From Ignavibacteria bacterium (GTDB taxonomy: Bacteria > Bacteroidota > Ignavibacteria > Tepidaquicellales > OLB5), in contig JAUQWS010000135.1 in the NCBI GenBank assembly GCA_030835025.1, forward strand, positions 1 to 39,422: 39,422 nt of DNA, in the 5' to 3' direction. Shown here in pieces: positions 9,258-37,321 of this stretch (position 1 is the stretch's first letter; every line of letters starts with the position of its first letter). The position numbers and the translations under genes are program-made. The notes under the pieces were generated by a model, which saw nothing but the letters and a program-made list of their open reading frames with translations, had not been told where the DNA came from and did no database searches.

Positions 9258-10877
9258 ATGAGAAAAATTGTTGAATGTGTACCAAATATTTCCGAAGGAA
9301 GAGACGAAAGTATCATAAACGCCTGTGCCGATGCTGTTCGCGGGGTTGAAGGTGCTACATTGCTGGATGTTGATCCCGGAAAATCCACAAACAGAACCGT
9401 TTTCACATTCGTAGGCGACCCTGATTCAATTGTAGAAGCAGCTTTTCAGTTTGCAAAGATGGCTTACAGCTTAATAGATATGACAAAGCACTCCGGTGCA
9501 CATCCAAGAATGGGCGCTGTTGATGTTGTTCCCTTTGTACCTGTTGCAGGAGTGACCACTGCAGATTGCGTTGAATGTTCAAAACGTTTCGGGAAACGAG
9601 TAGGCGAAGAGCTTGGCGTACCCGTTTATCTATATGAAGAGGCATCAACAAATCCCGACAGGAAAGCTCTGAAGCAGATAAGAGCAGGCGAATATGAAGG
9701 AATAAAAAACAAAATTATTAAACCTGAATGGAAACCAGATTACGGGCCGCAGGAATTTGTTCCAAGATCCGGCGCTACCGTAACCGGCTCGAGATTTTTT
9801 CTCATTGCTTACAATGTAAATATCTTAGGCACTAAGGAGCAGGCTCACAGGATCGCGCTCAATATCCGTGAACAGGGCAGAAGCGCTGATGAACCCGGAC
9901 GATTAAAAGCTATTAAGGCTATTGGATGGTATGTTGATGAATACAATATGGCGCAGGTTTCGATCAATCTGGATAATTACAAAATCACTCCGCCGCATAT
10001 TGTATTTGAAGAGTGTGTAAAAGACGCCGGGGAAATGAATCTTGCTGCAGCGGGCAGTGAGCTGGTGGGACTTATTCCGCTTGAAGCAATGCTTATGGCG
10101 GCTGATTATTATATTCAAAAGGAAAACCTGTTCATAATTGACGAGAAACAGAAAATAAGGCTTGTTGTTGAGAGGCTTGGACTCAGTTCAGTATCACCGT
10201 TTATTCCCGAAAAACGAATTATCGAATATATGATAGGCACAAAAAGAAATGAACCTTTGGCCAGCCTGACTGTCAGGGAATTCATTGAGCTGGTCGGAGC
10301 GCGTACATCAGCACCCGGAGGAGGAAGTGTTTCGGCTTTGATAGCTTCTCTTGGGGCAGCGCTTGGAGCAATGATGGGATGGATGAGCTATGGAAGCAAG
10401 AAGTTTGAACATCTTGATAAGGATATGAGAAGACTTATTCCGCCGCTGCATGAAAACATGGAGAAGCTTATACCAATGATAGATGCAGATACGAATGCTT
10501 TTAATGACTATATGAATGCCATGAAGCTACCCAAAAATACCGACGCTGAAAAGAAAATAAGGAATGAAAAAATGCAGGATGGCTTAAAGAAGGCTATCAA
10601 TGTTCCGCTCGGAGTGATGCGGATTGCAGATCTGTGCTGGCCGGAAATGAAGGAGCTTGCTAAGTTGGGTAACGCTAATTCAGCCAGTGACCTTGCCGTT
10701 GGGGCGAAATCTCTTGAAACCGGAATATGGGGCGCAAAGAAAAATGTTGAAATAAACCTTGTGCAGATAACAGATGAGAATTTCAAGAAAGATGTTGTAA
10801 AGGAAGCTGATGAAATAATGAATCGGGCAGTTATGAATCTGGCTGAAATAGAGAAAATACTGGAGGGAAGGAAATAA
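9258..10877 (+). CDS. ftcD: Bifunctional glutamate formimidoyltransferase / formimido-THF cyclodeaminase
   Basis: 539 aa, the size of a fused FTCD. The N-terminal transferase (about 1-300) starts MRKIVECVPNISEGRD and contains STNRTVFTFVG, AKMAYSLIDMTKHSGAHPRMGAVDVVPFVP (catalytic His and folate-contact region) and RSADEPGRLKAIKAIGW. A linker leads to the cyclodeaminase (about 335-535), recognised by VREFIELVGARTSAPGGGSVSALIASLGAALGAMMG. It moves the formimino group from formiminoglutamate to tetrahydrofolate and then releases ammonia to give methenyl-THF. It works directly after HutI in histidine breakdown. It has its own promoter candidate. A G/C-rich hairpin follows about 20 bp after the stop. 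Confidence 0.95.
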   Translation: MRKIVECVPNISEGRDESIINACADAVRGVEGATLLDVDPGKSTNRTVFTFVGDPDSIVEAAFQFAKMAYSLIDMTKHSGAHPRMGAVDVVPFVPVAGVTTADCVECSKRFGKRVGEELGVPVYLYEEASTNPDRKALKQIRAGEYEGIKNKIIKPEWKPDYGPQEFVPRSGATVTGSRFFLIAYNVNILGTKEQAHRIALNIREQGRSADEPGRLKAIKAIGWYVDEYNMAQVSINLDNYKITPPHIVFEECVKDAGEMNLAAAGSELVGLIPLEAMLMAADYYIQKENLFIIDEKQKIRLVVERLGLSSVSPFIPEKRIIEYMIGTKRNEPLASLTVREFIELVGARTSAPGGGSVSALIASLGAALGAMMGWMSYGSKKFEHLDKDMRRLIPPLHENMEKLIPMIDADTNAFNDYMNAMKLPKNTDAEKKIRNEKMQDGLKKAINVPLGVMRIADLCWPEMKELAKLGNANSASDLAVGAKSLETGIWGAKKNVEINLVQITDENFKKDVVKEADEIMNRAVMNLAEIEKILEGRK

Positions 10878-13633: not shown

Positions 13634-14581
13634 TCAGGCTATTTGAAAATTGACTTTTTTACGATGCAGTTTTCGGTGAGTTTCAGGGGAGTTTCTGTAG
13701 TGTTTCTTGAAAAGCTCGCTGAATGAGCTCAGTGATTCATAACCGGCATTAAAACAGATCTCAGTTATCGGGATTCCGGTTGATTCAACCTGTTTTTTTG
13801 CATTTTCGAGTCTGACTGATGTTAAATATTGGTGGGGAGTGGTACCGAAATGTGATTTGAATTTCCTTAATAAATGATGAGGACACATGCAGGAAACCAA
13901 AGAGAGTTTTTCAAGATCAACCGCTTCCCGGTAATTTGAATGAATGAAATCTTTTGCAACATTAAGCCTTTTATAAAGCTCGTATCTGGTAGAACGTTTT
14001 GCAGAACTGATCGTATCCGCCTCGATCGAAGCATTCAGCTGAAGCCTGAAAATGTGTTCAAGTATCAAGTGCATTATCTCATTCACACCGGCCTGTTCAT
14101 ATTCCTGCGAAGAGATCAATCTCTTAAGGGAATGGATATGCTTCATAATTACAGAGTCGTGGGGATAGAGTTTCTGGAAGAAGTTGACCGGATAGCGGTC
14201 GCGAAGCTCAGGATAGCTCAACAGGTAATCATCACGGTTGAACGAGGAATAGAAAACCTCATCAACAAATCCCGATGTAAAATTCAACGTAAATGATTCA
14301 ACTTGCTTATCGGAATCTATCAGGCTTTCATAAATGGTATCACGATTTAATATCAGGTAAGTATTATCATCAACCCTGTATCTCATCTTATCGAATATAT
14401 ATTCTTCACAGCCGCCAAATGCGAATTTCAGTGAAAGAGTCGTCCAGTGTGCGGGGTAATACAGCTGAGAATATCTTCCGTTCAATATTACGTTATGCTC
14501 AATGAATTGCCTGTTCCACTCCCTGTAGTTATAAGTGAAATCTTCAACATCAGGAAATTTTTTGATTACCTTAACACTCAT
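13634..14581 (-). CDS. AraC-family transcriptional regulator
   Basis: 315 aa. The C-terminal 100 residues carry the double helix-turn-helix of AraC/XylS proteins. LEKLSLVSCMCPHHLLRKFKSHFGTTPHQYLTSVRLENAK is the first motif and ITEICFNAGYESLSSFSELFKKHYRNSPETHRK is the second, matching the family signature G(Y/F).s.s.Fs..FK...g.sP. The N-terminal 200 residues (ligand-sensing or dimerisation) contain the cupin-like text YRVDDNTYLILNRDTIYES. No membrane segment is seen. It sits between the S9 peptidase gene (upstream, 49 bp) and the FG-GAP T9SS gene (downstream, 47 bp), which are candidate targets. Its own -7 box lies at 14626-14633. Confidence 0.9.
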   Translation of the reverse strand: MSVKVIKKFPDVEDFTYNYREWNRQFIEHNVILNGRYSQLYYPAHWTTLSLKFAFGGCEEYIFDKMRYRVDDNTYLILNRDTIYESLIDSDKQVESFTLNFTSGFVDEVFYSSFNRDDYLLSYPELRDRYPVNFFQKLYPHDSVIMKHIHSLKRLISSQEYEQAGVNEIMHLILEHIFRLQLNASIEADTISSAKRSTRYELYKRLNVAKDFIHSNYREAVDLEKLSLVSCMCPHHLLRKFKSHFGTTPHQYLTSVRLENAKKQVESTGIPITEICFNAGYESLSSFSELFKKHYRNSPETHRKLHRKKVNFQIA

Positions 14582-14633: not shown

Positions 14634-16793
14634 GGGATTTTTCAAATTCTTTGCAAAGAATTTCCAAATCCTCTTGTACTGATCAAGCCAGCTTGATTGC
14701 CGGAAGAAATTATGGCCTTCTTTGGGGTAATACATGATCTCAAAGTCCTTCTTGAGGTCAATAAGCTTTTGGTTAAGCTGCACTGATTGCTGGAAGAAGA
14801 CATTATCATCAAGCATACCGTGAAGCAGAAGCAGCGGACCCTGCAGATCTTCTGCGTATGTTATTGGAGAAGATATTCGGTAATTCTCTTTGTCTTCCTC
14901 AAGCGCAAAATCTCCCAGCCGCCCCAGTGTGAACCATTTATTAGCGTAATAGTAGTTTTTCCAGTCTGATACCGCTCTTAGCGCAGCACCGCAGATGAAA
15001 ACATCGTTCCGCCGGAACATTGACATTAGAGTTATAAATCCGCCGTAGCTGCCGCCATAGATCCCGACTTTTTCTCCGTTAACATATCCCAGTGATTTCA
15101 AATGGTTTACTCCGCTCACATAATCCGATACTTCCCAATAACCAAGATTGTGGTAAGTTTTATTGCGGAATTCTTTACCGTAACCCATACTGCCGCGGAA
15201 ATCGATATCAAGTATAACAAATCCTTGTTGTGTTAAGAAAGTATTCACCATGAAATTATCGCGGTAAGGTGAAAAGCCGTAGGTCACATTCTGCAGATAG
15301 CCGGAGCCGTGCGCAAAACATATCAAAGGGTATTTTTTCTTCGGATTGAAGTTTTGCGGTTTATAAACAAATGCGTGAATCAACTGACCATCTTCTTCAT
15401 TCCGGAATGTGATCAGCTCAGGTAATGCCCAATCTACACTGCTGAATTTTGGTGAAGCCGTGTTTGTTATCTGCTCAGAGCGGTAGCCGTCAAGCTCTAA
15501 ACAGTGAAGTTCATCAGGCTTAGTTAAGTATGACTGTAAATAGAACAGATATTTTCCGTTGCCCGAGAGCCTTAGGTCTTTAACGTCACCCCTTTCGAAT
15601 GTTATTTGCTTTGGTTCAGCTCCTGCCAGATCCGTTTCGTAAATAAAATATTCATACGGCTCTTCAATATTAGCTGAGAAGTATACTTTCTTGTTTTTGT
15701 TATCAGTTTCACATTCAAGTATAGTATAATTCCCGCCGGCAATTTTTGTAAAGCCCGTTCCGTCAGTTCTGATCCTATACAGATTGTTGTAACCTGATAC
15801 TTCTGATTCAAAAAGAATTTCTTCATTATTCAGGAACGAGGTTGAGTAAGTGTGCCTTTCGTACCAGGCTGCATCCGTTTCGCTGTATATTTCTTTTATC
15901 TGTTTTGACGAAATATCATAAATGAAGAGTTTTCTGTTGTGCCTGTCGAGGGTTTCTGCATCAAATAATATGCTGAATCCGTCAGGGGAATAAGACGTAA
16001 TAGAAGTTGAGTACCTAGTCGAATCAGGATATTTAATTTCAGTTACTTTCTTATATAATGAATCTTTGCTGCCCCAGCGTATGTCATACTCAAGCAGATT
16101 AACAGTTGAATATCCGCGCTTTTGTTTCTCTGCCTTAACAAATTCGTCATTGAAATTAGGAAAGATGAGCTCTTTTTTTGAGGCATTGTTATACCGCGCA
16201 AACAGCATTCTAAGAAGTGTGCCTGAAAAATCAGAATATTTTCGAGTAAAAGCAATAGGCTGGTAAGCAATTGAATCAGATTCATCACTCGTCAGCTCAA
16301 GCTCTTTTGTTACTGCTTTAGCAGAATCAAATACCCTCAGGTAATAATTCCCTGCTCTTCTGTATATTGCTATGTTATCAATAACCTGCGGCGAGTATTC
16401 ATATTTATCAGTCTCGGTGAGCTGTACATCCTTGTTGAATATTCGCTTTGTCGCGAAATCCCTGGAAACGTATACTTCTCCTTTTATAACACACAGAGCA
16501 TCACCACTGGGCATAATGACATATTCGGATGCATCCAGAGCTGAATCGATATACTTATAATTTTCTTTTGTGACATAATCATAATCAAACAGGTTCAGGC
16601 TGCCGTCATAATCATCATCAGCATAATAATACACTTTATTGCTGTTTGGGTTTATGAATTTAAGCGAGGGGCGTGGATTGACTATGTTCGTATCCTGGAA
16701 AATATATTCCAGCGAAATTTCCTGTGAGCGTGCGCTGGAATAAAAAAGGAACAGAAGCAGAAAGACAGCTGTTCCTTTTGATAATTTAATCAT
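14631..16793 (-). CDS. S9 prolyl-oligopeptidase-family peptidase (DPP IV-like), exported
   Basis: 720 aa. The signal peptide MIKLSKGTAVFLLLFLFYSSARSQ is followed by a beta-propeller (about 40-450) and a C-terminal alpha/beta-hydrolase domain. The nucleophile elbow GGSYGG puts Ser at 582. The acid is in HGMLDDNV at about 662-663 and the catalytic His is in EGHNFF at 694. The oxyanion region FAHGSGYLQNVTYG and the FRGSMGYGKEF motif are typical of S9B/S9C enzymes. It should cleave dipeptides or short peptides in the periplasm. It starts 13 bp after the lysA stop, so the two are probably one transcript. The pairing with lysA may be incidental. Confidence 0.92.
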   Translation of the reverse strand: MIKLSKGTAVFLLLFLFYSSARSQEISLEYIFQDTNIVNPRPSLKFINPNSNKVYYYADDDYDGSLNLFDYDYVTKENYKYIDSALDASEYVIMPSGDALCVIKGEVYVSRDFATKRIFNKDVQLTETDKYEYSPQVIDNIAIYRRAGNYYLRVFDSAKAVTKELELTSDESDSIAYQPIAFTRKYSDFSGTLLRMLFARYNNASKKELIFPNFNDEFVKAEKQKRGYSTVNLLEYDIRWGSKDSLYKKVTEIKYPDSTRYSTSITSYSPDGFSILFDAETLDRHNRKLFIYDISSKQIKEIYSETDAAWYERHTYSTSFLNNEEILFESEVSGYNNLYRIRTDGTGFTKIAGGNYTILECETDNKNKKVYFSANIEEPYEYFIYETDLAGAEPKQITFERGDVKDLRLSGNGKYLFYLQSYLTKPDELHCLELDGYRSEQITNTASPKFSSVDWALPELITFRNEEDGQLIHAFVYKPQNFNPKKKYPLICFAHGSGYLQNVTYGFSPYRDNFMVNTFLTQQGFVILDIDFRGSMGYGKEFRNKTYHNLGYWEVSDYVSGVNHLKSLGYVNGEKVGIYGGSYGGFITLMSMFRRNDVFICGAALRAVSDWKNYYYANKWFTLGRLGDFALEEDKENYRISSPITYAEDLQGPLLLLHGMLDDNVFFQQSVQLNQKLIDLKKDFEIMYYPKEGHNFFRQSSWLDQYKRIWKFFAKNLKNP

Positions 16794-32942: not shown

Positions 32943-34553
32943 CTAAACAGTCATTTTTGCCCCAGCCTGTTTGAACAGGTGGTCCATATAGAACTTCGTC
33001 AGTTTTTCCAGAACTGTATTGTTCTTTAAGCGGGTATTCAGGTTATTGAAATCAACTTTGTTCATATCCTGGTCCTGGTTAAAGCATGTGAATACAAATG
33101 ACTCCTCGCCTGTCTTGGGATCAACATGGCGCTGCAGGCACTGTGCGCAAACTTCCTTCATCATGCACTGCATCGGGGAGTTTATACTTGCAATTGCAAC
33201 GTGCTCAGGATTCAGGTATTTTTTAAGTATTGTAAACCTTGCTTCCTGGATTGCCTTCATCATCCTGTCACTGCCGATCGCAATTATCCTGTCAACTTTC
33301 CTCAGGTCAAACATCGGCGGCCCGCCATCCGGCTCAAGCTTGCCTTCGGCATATGCGATCATAGCCTGAACTATATTGGCAGTTATCGCTCTATCCTGCC
33401 TGCGCCTTGGTTTGATAGTATCGCCGAAATCATTTGACCAGATCACCTGGTTTGTTCCTTCTTCAACTTCGTCCTGTTTAAAAAGATCTGTTGTGTTCCT
33501 GTAACCGGCAAAATATATTACTTTATTGCCGTTATCTTTCATTGCCTTTGCAACAGAAAATAATACAGCATTTCCCAATCCGCCGCCTGCAAGAAGGACG
33601 GTTTCGCCTTTGGGTATTTCTGTCGGTGTACCGGTCGGACCCATCACAACTACACGCTCACCCTTTTTAAGGAAACGGCAGAGCCTTGAGCTTCCCCACA
33701 TTTCCAGAATTATCACGCTGAGCAGGCCTTTGCCCTTATTTACCCACGCACCTGTCAAAGCAAGTCCTTCCATCATCATCTTGGTTCCGTTTACATCTAC
33801 AGAAGTTGTCTCATAGTTCTGCAGCCTGTAAAACTGGCCGGGGTGGAATTTCCTTGCCTGAAGCGGAGCGCGCATAACTACCTCAACAATGGTCGGGGTT
33901 AGTATATTCACTTCTTCTACATATGCAACAAACTCCCCGTCAAGACGTTTGGCAAACTCATCGTACTTTGCTTCAAGCAAAGACTGGTCTTCCTTATGCA
34001 GCTGCCCTTCGAAAATTCTCACAACATGTTCGTATCCGTCCTTGGATGATGCCATGGCTTTAACAACATTGCCTGCATACCGAGGATGGTTATCGCCATA
34101 GACCGTTATGTATTTGCCGAACTTGTTATAGGATGTGAAGAATCCTGTTTCATTCTTTTCAGCTTTTACGAGCTTCCTGTTTTCATTCATTTTGAAAGTC
34201 TGGAAGAAATGTTTCCGCTCATCAAGCTCAAATGTACCGGGATGCTCACGCTCGTAAATAACATTCGGTGATGTTCCTGCTGCAACGATCACGGTCTTTG
34301 CAGGTATAGTAATGGTTTCATCGCTTTCAGTATACTTGCCGTCGGCATTTCTGATCTGTTTTCTGAAGACCATTTCTTTAATAGCCCCGAATTCATTCTG
34401 TATTGCTTCTTCGGGACTTATCATCTCCCAGTAATAGATTCCCTCTTCAAGCGATTTTATTATTTCTTCGTGGTTAAGCCTGTATGCGGGTGAATCGGTA
34501 ATGGATTTTCTGTAACACAAAGTCACTCCGCCCCATTTCCTTACATACGGCAC
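32943..34553 (-). CDS. 3' part of the disrupted NfnBA-like oxidoreductase gene
   Basis: 536 codons are open, but the first codon is GTG inside a conserved coding stretch and no start or Shine-Dalgarno precedes it. This is therefore the distal half of the gene that begins at 37261. It first repeats about 190 aa of the flavin domain (PYVRKWGGVTLCYRKS to VRIFEGQL). It then continues HKEDQSLLEAKYDEF into an FAD-binding FR-type/NAD-binding reductase (ARKFHPGQFYRLQNYE and VVVMGPTGTPTEIPKGETVLLAGGGLGNAVLFSVAKAM). It ends with a [2Fe-2S]-type cluster motif CMMKEVCAQCLQRHV...FTC (C-x5-C-x2-C-x17-C) as in PyrK/NfnA. In an intact copy it would pass electrons between NAD(P)H, FAD and an Fe-S cluster. It is broken from the 5' half by the 578-bp repeat. 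Confidence 0.8.
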   Translation of the reverse strand: MPYVRKWGGVTLCYRKSITDSPAYRLNHEEIIKSLEEGIYYWEMISPEEAIQNEFGAIKEMVFRKQIRNADGKYTESDETITIPAKTVIVAAGTSPNVIYEREHPGTFELDERKHFFQTFKMNENRKLVKAEKNETGFFTSYNKFGKYITVYGDNHPRYAGNVVKAMASSKDGYEHVVRIFEGQLHKEDQSLLEAKYDEFAKRLDGEFVAYVEEVNILTPTIVEVVMRAPLQARKFHPGQFYRLQNYETTSVDVNGTKMMMEGLALTGAWVNKGKGLLSVIILEMWGSSRLCRFLKKGERVVVMGPTGTPTEIPKGETVLLAGGGLGNAVLFSVAKAMKDNGNKVIYFAGYRNTTDLFKQDEVEEGTNQVIWSNDFGDTIKPRRRQDRAITANIVQAMIAYAEGKLEPDGGPPMFDLRKVDRIIAIGSDRMMKAIQEARFTILKKYLNPEHVAIASINSPMQCMMKEVCAQCLQRHVDPKTGEESFVFTCFNQDQDMNKVDFNNLNTRLKNNTVLEKLTKFYMDHLFKQAGAKMTV

Positions 34554-35153
34554 AAAATCAGGTTCTTCGCCGGCTGCAGCTGCCCTTCGAAAATTCTTAC
34601 AACATGCTCGTATCCGTTCTTAGATGATGCCATGGCTTTAACAACATTGCCTGCATACCGAGGATGGTTATCACCATAGACCGTTATGTATTTGCCGAAC
34701 TTGTTATAGGATGTGAAGAATCCTGTTTCATTCTTTTCAGCTTTTACGAGCTTCCTGTTTTCATCCATTTTGAATGTCTGGAAGAAATGTTTCCGCTCAT
34801 CAAGCTCAAATGTACCGGGATGCTCACGCTCGTAAATAACATTCGGTGATGTTCCTGCTGCAACTATCACGGTCTTTGCAGGTATGGTAATGGTTTCATC
34901 GCTTTCAGTATACATGCCGTCGGCATTTCTGATCTGTTTTCTGAAGACCATTTCTTTAATAGCGCCGAATTCATTCTGTATGGCTTCTTCGGGACTGATC
35001 ATCTCCCAGTAATAGATTCCCTCTTCCAGCGATTTTATTATTTCTTCGTGGTTAAGCCTGTATGCGGGTGAATCGGTTATGGATTTTCTGTAACACAAAG
35101 TCACTCCGCCCCATTTCCTTACATACGGCACAAAATCAGGCTCCTCGCCGGCT
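33998..35153. repeat. 578-bp direct tandem repeat (two units) inside the oxidoreductase gene
   Basis: Unit 1 is 33998-34575 and unit 2 is 34576-35153, in direct contact with a period of exactly 578 bp. The units are about 97% identical: I count about 18 differences, of which three change the protein (K/M, N/D, D/N) and the others are silent. 578 is not a multiple of three, so the frame is lost at the join; the 5' half then reads QPAKNLILCRM and stops. The join lies in a GC-rich GCTGC run (GCAGCTGC at the junction, GCGGCTGC at the far end), which could be microhomology. Confidence 0.95.
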
Positions 35154-37261
35154 GCGGCTGCACGCTTTCTTTCAGCGCGAATTTCTTTTCCGTGTTCAAG
35201 GAATGTCTTTGCAATCCCTTTCTCTTCTTCATCATATATCGCCCAGATAGCCTCTTCGCCGAAATCTGCAACTGCAATTTCGTAGCGGTCGAGGAATTTT
35301 TCAACCTGTATAGGGTAATATGCAAATGCTTCTGTAGTAGTATCAATTGCAGTCAGTCCGCCGCCGATGACAACAGCGGGGAGCTGCAGCATAAGGTTGG
35401 CAAGCGAATCTTTCTTTGCTGCGCCTGTTAACTGCAAAGACATAAGGAAGTCCGAAGCCTGGCGGATACCGCGGATCATGTTGTTTTTGATGTTCACCAT
35501 TGTCGGTTTACCGGCTCCGGTGGTGATGGCGATATGGTCAAAACCCATATCCCATGCGTCTTCTATCTCAACTGTGCCGCCGAATCTTACGCCGTCGTAA
35601 ACCGCAAAATGTTTTCTTCTGGCAAGCGTCATATAAACAACCTTAAGGAAATTCTTATCCCACCTGACGGTAATGCCGTATTCGGATACTCCGCCAAATC
35701 CTAAAAAAACCCTCTTATCAAGCTCATCCCTTACGGTTTTATAATCATATAACGGCTTGGGCGGATAGTATTTACCCTCTCTATCCCTGTAGCCTGTAAT
35801 ATCTTTGTGAACATGCTCCAGCTTAAGCCCGTCAATTCCAACCACTGCAAAACCTTCGTTAAGCAGGTATTGAGAGAGCGTGTAACCTGCGGGACCCATA
35901 CCGACAACCATTACATTTTTGCCGTTGTACGGAAGTTCATAAGGACGCTTTACGTTTACCGGATTCCACCTTGTAAGGAGTGAATAGATCTCAAATCCCC
36001 ACGGCAGATCCAAAACTTCAGTCAAAACCCTTGTTTCAATCTGGGGGATATTGACAGGTTCCTGCTTCTGGTATATGCATGCCTTCATACAGTCATTGCA
36101 TATCCTGTGGCCTGTACCCGGGCACATTGGGTTGTCTATCATTATCAGCGAAAGGGCACCGATTGATCTTCCTTCATACTTAAGGTAATGCATTTCAGAA
36201 ATCTTTTCACAAAGCGGGCAGCCGTTCAGAGGAATTCCGAGAGGATTCCTTTTGGACGCACCGTCTTTTTCCCTCATTCCTTTTGAGCATGAGTCTTTTG
36301 CCCTTTCGTGGCAGAACACACAGTATTCAACCTCACCCATTATCTGGCGGTTATCGTACCTCTTATCGGTTAGCTTGAAGCCGTCTCTTCTTCTTAATGA
36401 TTCTTCATCGCCGTAGATCTTTTCAGGAATGCCCGGCGTTTCAACTTCGTTATGTACAAGATCGTTGTAATCTACATTTGCCGGCTGTCTTAAAAGAACC
36501 CAATCATGTGTAACATGTTTCCTGTGATGATTATACATTCCGGAAAAACACCATTCCTGTATTACATCAAGGACTTTCTTCAGGCTCTCAAAAGCAGTCT
36601 TTTGATTCTGCTCAGCAGCAGTGTTCTTATACTGTTTATCTTCTGCCGGAGCAGAAAGAAATTCCAGCTTCTCATAGAGCTTAAGCTGATTCATGTATTT
36701 TTCTGACTTTGCGCTGAGTTCTGCATCCAGCACAAATCCCTGCGGCATTATCTCAAGGTGATTCCTTAGATTCTGTTCCTGTTCGGCAAGATCTCTTATC
36801 ATGAAAGCGGTTGCCTTTTCTTCATCTTCTTTCCACGGGTAATCAGCGTAGAGTATTTCTTTAATAACTTTCACCTTTTCATTCAGCTCATCAAAATCCA
36901 TCTGCTCAAGGTCAGCCACTTTGTACTTCTTGAAGACGCGCTTCATCATGAAATCGCTTCTTACCTTCAGTATCTCTTTTTCGGTTATGTTGGAATCCTT
37001 AAGTACTTCCGCTTCAGAGGAAAGCCCGAACAGCTCAACTATGAACCTGTCAAGAAATCTGCCTGACTCTATGAGTATCTTTGAAATGTCAATTTCGGAG
37101 TAACCTTCGCCAAGGGAATCCCTGTATTTCTTGAATCTCTCAAACGAATCCTTATCAGTTGTTTCATAGAATCCGTAGAATTTTTCAGTCAACTCTTTAA
37201 GTTTCCCTGATTCAAAAAGGTCTTCAAATTTGAAACCAAAATTCAGTTTTAGCTCATTCAT
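34541..37261 (-). CDS. 5' part of an NfnB/GltD-like FAD and Fe-S oxidoreductase, truncated by the repeat
   Basis: 906 aa from the ATG at 37261, chosen because AAGGAG precedes it by 12 bases; the ATG at 37321 has none. Residues 1-310 are a helical domain I do not recognise. A Cys-rich segment (CVFC near 314, GCPLC near 348, MCPGTGHRICNDCMKAC near 380-395) looks like the Fe-S domain of GltD/NfnB/dihydropyrimidine-dehydrogenase-type enzymes. A Rossmann FAD motif VMVVGMGPAGYTLSQYL follows near 450. A second dinucleotide motif VVIGGGLTAIDT and the flavin domain TVIVAAGTSPNVIYE come further on. The last 11 residues (QPAKNLILCRM) are out-of-frame readings of the repeated DNA. With one 578-bp unit removed the gene would be 1246 codons and end at 32943. 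Likely an NAD(P)H-linked electron-transfer enzyme; the partners are unknown. Confidence 0.85.
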   Translation of the reverse strand: MNELKLNFGFKFEDLFESGKLKELTEKFYGFYETTDKDSFERFKKYRDSLGEGYSEIDISKILIESGRFLDRFIVELFGLSSEAEVLKDSNITEKEILKVRSDFMMKRVFKKYKVADLEQMDFDELNEKVKVIKEILYADYPWKEDEEKATAFMIRDLAEQEQNLRNHLEIMPQGFVLDAELSAKSEKYMNQLKLYEKLEFLSAPAEDKQYKNTAAEQNQKTAFESLKKVLDVIQEWCFSGMYNHHRKHVTHDWVLLRQPANVDYNDLVHNEVETPGIPEKIYGDEESLRRRDGFKLTDKRYDNRQIMGEVEYCVFCHERAKDSCSKGMREKDGASKRNPLGIPLNGCPLCEKISEMHYLKYEGRSIGALSLIMIDNPMCPGTGHRICNDCMKACIYQKQEPVNIPQIETRVLTEVLDLPWGFEIYSLLTRWNPVNVKRPYELPYNGKNVMVVGMGPAGYTLSQYLLNEGFAVVGIDGLKLEHVHKDITGYRDREGKYYPPKPLYDYKTVRDELDKRVFLGFGGVSEYGITVRWDKNFLKVVYMTLARRKHFAVYDGVRFGGTVEIEDAWDMGFDHIAITTGAGKPTMVNIKNNMIRGIRQASDFLMSLQLTGAAKKDSLANLMLQLPAVVIGGGLTAIDTTTEAFAYYPIQVEKFLDRYEIAVADFGEEAIWAIYDEEEKGIAKTFLEHGKEIRAERKRAAAAGEEPDFVPYVRKWGGVTLCYRKSITDSPAYRLNHEEIIKSLEEGIYYWEMISPEEAIQNEFGAIKEMVFRKQIRNADGMYTESDETITIPAKTVIVAAGTSPNVIYEREHPGTFELDERKHFFQTFKMDENRKLVKAEKNETGFFTSYNKFGKYITVYGDNHPRYAGNVVKAMASSKNGYEHVVRIFEGQLQPAKNLILCRM

Positions 37262-37321
37262 CTTTCTTAAATGCTCCTTAAAATTAACATCCCGTTGATT
37301 CAAACAAGTAAGAGGGGTCAT

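Follow-up and report, generated by a model that had tools for sequence, protein, structure and literature searches.

Metagenome-assembled genomes are known to carry errors of local assembly, wrong repeat numbers and duplicate sequence where scaffolds were joined, and the available part of one such account also describes a "seemingly rare" artificial concatenation of sequences hundreds of bases long (PMC7111523). Homology-facilitated illegitimate recombination, reported from three competent species and from E. coli conjugation in the portion of the source available to us (PMC3240628), would likewise place two diverged alleles side by side, with one of the joins at short homology, but it is a rare process. 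The protein concerned resembles the bifunctional glutamate synthase beta-like oxidoreductases of the NCBIfam family NF005128 (PRK06567), annotated as putative bifunctional glutamate synthase subunit beta/2-polyprenylphenol hydroxylase.

The window, that is, the whole stretch of DNA analysed, is an entire contig (C72) of 39,422 bp from a 136-contig draft Ignavibacteria genome of 3,025,921 bases (94.95% complete, 0.55% contamination). Within it, a minus-strand gene is interrupted by a directly abutting repeat of two 578-bp units, which shifts the reading frame and leaves two open reading frames (ORFs) of 906 and 536 amino acids. The features of the locus are as follows.

33998..34575, minus strand: unit 1 (allele 1), 578 bp; on the coding strand it is the 3' copy and runs on into the 3' half of the gene.
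34576..35153, minus strand: unit 2 (allele 2), 578 bp, differing from unit 1 at 17 sites; on the coding strand it is the 5' copy and follows on without a break from the 5' half of the gene.
34575..34583, no strand assigned: unit junction, 9 bp identical to the left edge at 33997-34005 and matching the right edge at 35153-35161 at 8 of 9 positions.
34541..37261, minus strand: ORF1, 906 amino acids from the ATG at 37261; the N-terminal part and an FAD/NAD(P)H glutamate-synthase-beta-like module.
32943..34553, minus strand: ORF2, 536 amino acids; the end of the glutamate-synthase-beta-like module and a dihydroorotate-dehydrogenase electron-transfer-like module.

The tandem repeat is present in the deposited sequence. 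Its units are identical at 561 of 578 positions without gaps, and at 578 bp and 97% identity the resemblance is far beyond chance. The first-pass annotation had counted about 18 differing sites, which agrees with our figures: 17 lie within the units, and 18 are reached once the site just past the edge is included, as in the BLAST match between the units (587 columns, 18 mismatches, arms overlapping by 9 bp). A search of the genome with unit 1 returned two matches, both at the repeat locus. Tandem Repeats Finder missed the 578-bp repeat because the longest period that it considers is 500.

The frame reconstruction proposed in the first-pass annotation is also reproduced, as a matter of arithmetic only: the ATG at 37261 and the stop at 32943 span 4319 bp, and subtraction of 578 leaves 3741 bp, or 1247 codons. 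An in-frame ATG upstream, at 37321, would extend ORF1 to 926 amino acids, and the frames of relatives align to the gene from about 37261. ORF1 and ORF2 resemble NF005128 in covering consecutive, overlapping parts of the 1031-position model (1-768 and 621-925, respectively), but, scored as separate pieces, they reach 460 and 235 bits, each under the cut-off of 1072 bits set for the whole protein. ORF1 also matches glutamate-synthase models and Pfam Pyr_redox_2, with a Fer4_20 match under its cut-off, and ORF2 matches dihydroorotate dehydrogenase electron-transfer models; a Pfam search of ORF2 gave no match. Elsewhere in the window, a fusion-like ORF (9258-10877) joins a glutamate formimidoyltransferase to a methenyltetrahydrofolate cyclohydrolase-like part.

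The differences between the units are those expected of alleles of an intact gene. Fourteen of the 17 are synonymous third-position changes, and the remaining three, as the first-pass annotation had listed them, exchange M/K, D/N and N/D. Between the units pS is 0.117 and dS 0.127, pN and dN are both 0.0066, and dN/dS is about 0.05. Changes fall on both units: at the 17 sites, the majority base of 11 relatives is found in the 5' unit at three, in the 3' unit at eight and in neither at six, and of the three amino acid sites, two differ from the relatives in the 5' unit and one in the 3' unit. In a neutral simulation, 12.9 of 17 differences were expected to be nonsynonymous, and none of 20,000 runs gave three or fewer. 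The earlier proposal that the units diverged under purifying selection is thus upheld. Tandem duplication within one cell, after which the copies in the broken gene diverged neutrally, would account for the short homology at the join, a common feature of tandem duplications. That history is nevertheless extremely improbable given the simulation, and we reject neutral divergence after duplication on the substitution pattern. The selection pattern shows that the units did not diverge side by side in a broken gene; the scarcity of nonsynonymous differences, together with the presence of changes on both units, means that they diverged within intact genes of separate lineages. We take both units to be alleles of a functional gene whose two lineages lie about 3% apart, as strains do. 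A difference of 3% is typical between strains of one species.

In the relatives examined the unit is single. A comparison of the repeat DNA with 59 genomes gave matches in 25, including its own, and hence in 24 of 58 others. These include 10 of 12 genomes of the same genus and one of two of the same family, each with one match of about one unit; there was no match to the repeat DNA in G001 and G003 (same genus) or in G014 (same family). Three of the matching genomes (G028, G037 and G053) have two listed matches each, with a spacing that fits two pieces of one unit. In each of the 11 matching genomes of the genus or family, both pieces of the gene lie in one frame, although some loci cut the gene short. 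A wider scan confirmed at least 578 candidates, of which the best 80 were kept as loci, four of them from same-genus genomes; the best named relatives among these 80 are Ignavibacteria metagenome-assembled genomes (MAGs) at 69-75% identity, which suggests that the draft too belongs to the Ignavibacteria. The unit is encoded once in 79 of the best 80 loci, and the contig of the other (L011) ends before the unit. In 60 loci the frame is closed and spans 1150 codons or more, while 16 run off the locus and three (L037, L049 and L059) are shorter. When 20 chosen loci were compared with the two gene pieces, both pieces fell on one open frame in 19. These 19 include the 11 distinct genus- or family-level genomes (L084-L094), in which the open frame extends beyond the sequence retrieved; judged by length, L003-L006 are the same contigs as four of these. 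A duplication common to the lineage was rejected, the unit being single in the relatives examined.

The twentieth locus (L037, 4866-8827, from the Chlorobiota MAG contig JAQBOZ010000027.1) has the gene split over two overlapping frames of 858 and 627 codons, stop to stop. It lacks a repeated unit, so its split is probably a frameshift.

The same comparison bears on an older duplication, a gene fission with domain overlap, in which the two halves would function independently as proteins and selection would maintain the copy of the shared segment in each. The length of both ORFs, their overlapping ranges on NF005128 and the selection on the units are in keeping with such a history. It is very improbable, however: the arrangement is present in no relative examined, the final residues of ORF1 are out of frame with relatives and do not align to them, the listed start of ORF2 is a GTG inside unit 1, and a divergence of 3% is of strain level within one species.

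The draft itself has a signature of short-read assembly. Among 100 sampled contig ends that are not N, all seven exact overlaps of at least 16 bp are exactly 141 bp long. Such overlaps equal the maximum k in MEGAHIT and metaSPAdes and the maximum k minus 1 in IDBA_UD, and the maxima used, in the part of the study available to us, were 99 or 141, 99 or 127, and 100 or 140, respectively (PMC10914622). The draft was therefore most likely assembled with MEGAHIT, at k values up to 141, from reads of about 150 bases, the assembler and read length being deduced from this signature. The longest identical run between the units is 91 bp, shorter than the k of 141 given by the end overlaps, so the two alleles would form separate paths at k of 99 and above.

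The tandem repeat probably arose when the assembly joined the alleles that two co-occurring strains carry of one gene; in the living organism that gene is probably uninterrupted. Two strains about 3% apart in this region, sequenced by short reads in a metagenome, would have given separate paths at large k; the path of one allele would have ended just past the right edge of the unit and that of the other begun at its left edge, and instead of being collapsed the two may have been bridged by a short string that they share almost exactly (TGCAGCTGC / TGCGGCTGC). A near-match of 9 bp with one mismatch is reached by 0.12% of random pairs in the window, and the true overlap at the junction could be longer, since the contig lacks the flank to the right of allele 1 and that to the left of allele 2. 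An overlap of 9 bp would not suffice for a plain de Bruijn join at k=21 and calls for a low-k local-assembly or gap-closing step. Local assembly in MEGAHIT begins at a k of about 11, and a low-k local-assembly step could join on a string such as this. We infer the presence of two strains in the sample, the name of the assembler and the software step behind the join.

This reading is close to the errors of PMC7111523 in its duplicate sequence at joins and its artificial concatenation. It differs in that the concatenation described there, in the part of the text available, is of identical sequence, whereas the copies here are 97% identical, and that part names no strain-allele tandem. Among the listed papers on assembly errors and false duplication, titles and opening abstract lines likewise showed no allele-tandem join of exactly this kind.

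Besides the shortness of the overlap, an assembly join of strain alleles has against it the low contamination of the bin and the lack of strain redundancy elsewhere in a sample of the same genome (861,593 of the 3,025,921 bases, on 64 sequence-bearing contigs including the window; 16 further contigs consist only of N). That sample held no second abutting pair reaching 90% identity and 60 bp, nor any match between contigs of 60 bp or more at 88-99% identity; contigs of a minor strain may have been left unbinned. The nearest cases in it are non-abutting direct repeats of 63 bp (92%, L150), 119 bp (90%, L161) and 196 bp (94%, L190), the last at 13981-14176 and 15603-15798 of its locus on contig C80, 1.4 kb apart. 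A further locus (L138, 192-7486, contig C27) may be an array of paralogous genes, as its several diverged direct repeats are up to 1.7 kb long and 71-85% identical. Among the 80 control loci (827,542 bases), abutting pairs were found at L059 (5403-5561; 81 bp, 93%) and L077 (2890-3109; 112 bp, 86%), with none of at least 200 bp at 90%; given such short pairs, only the length and identity of the 578-bp pair are unusual. The L059 pair lies outside the oxidoreductase gene, in a Bacteroidetes MAG.

The same data could also reflect a real, recent tandem duplication by inter-strain recombination, with the gene disrupted and two alleles in one chromosome. One end of a homologous fragment from a strain diverged by 3% would have paired with the gene, and its other end would have been joined at a short near-match, the course of homology-facilitated illegitimate recombination. 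This would account for the low dN/dS, the presence of changes in each unit and the edge homology of 9 bp. Of the two joins expected, one homologous and one at short homology, the 9-bp near-match at the junction would be the second; placing the first would take the donor sequence. We regard such an event as unlikely, while giving it some weight because it predicts the same substitution pattern and short homology. It requires a rare event, one of low efficiency as the title of PMC3240628 states, caught before decay of the gene; no such product was seen in the relatives examined, and the sole known copy sits in a fragmented draft with a signature of short-read type. The first-pass annotation had left the choice between an assembly join and recent recombination of diverged alleles, and the balance tilts to the assembly join because of the fragmented draft with its 141-bp, MEGAHIT-type overlaps, the single unit in the relatives examined and the 9-bp near-match.

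Taken at face value, the record describes a broken gene and two false proteins of 906 and 536 amino acids. The pattern does offer a cheap flag, drawn from sequence only, for joins of strain alleles in draft genomes: abutting copies of about 97% identity with differences that are nearly all synonymous, a unit length that is not a multiple of three, and full-length relatives. If the junction were real in the cell, it would be a tandem of alleles from two strains, caught in a natural Ignavibacteria population before decay or collapse.
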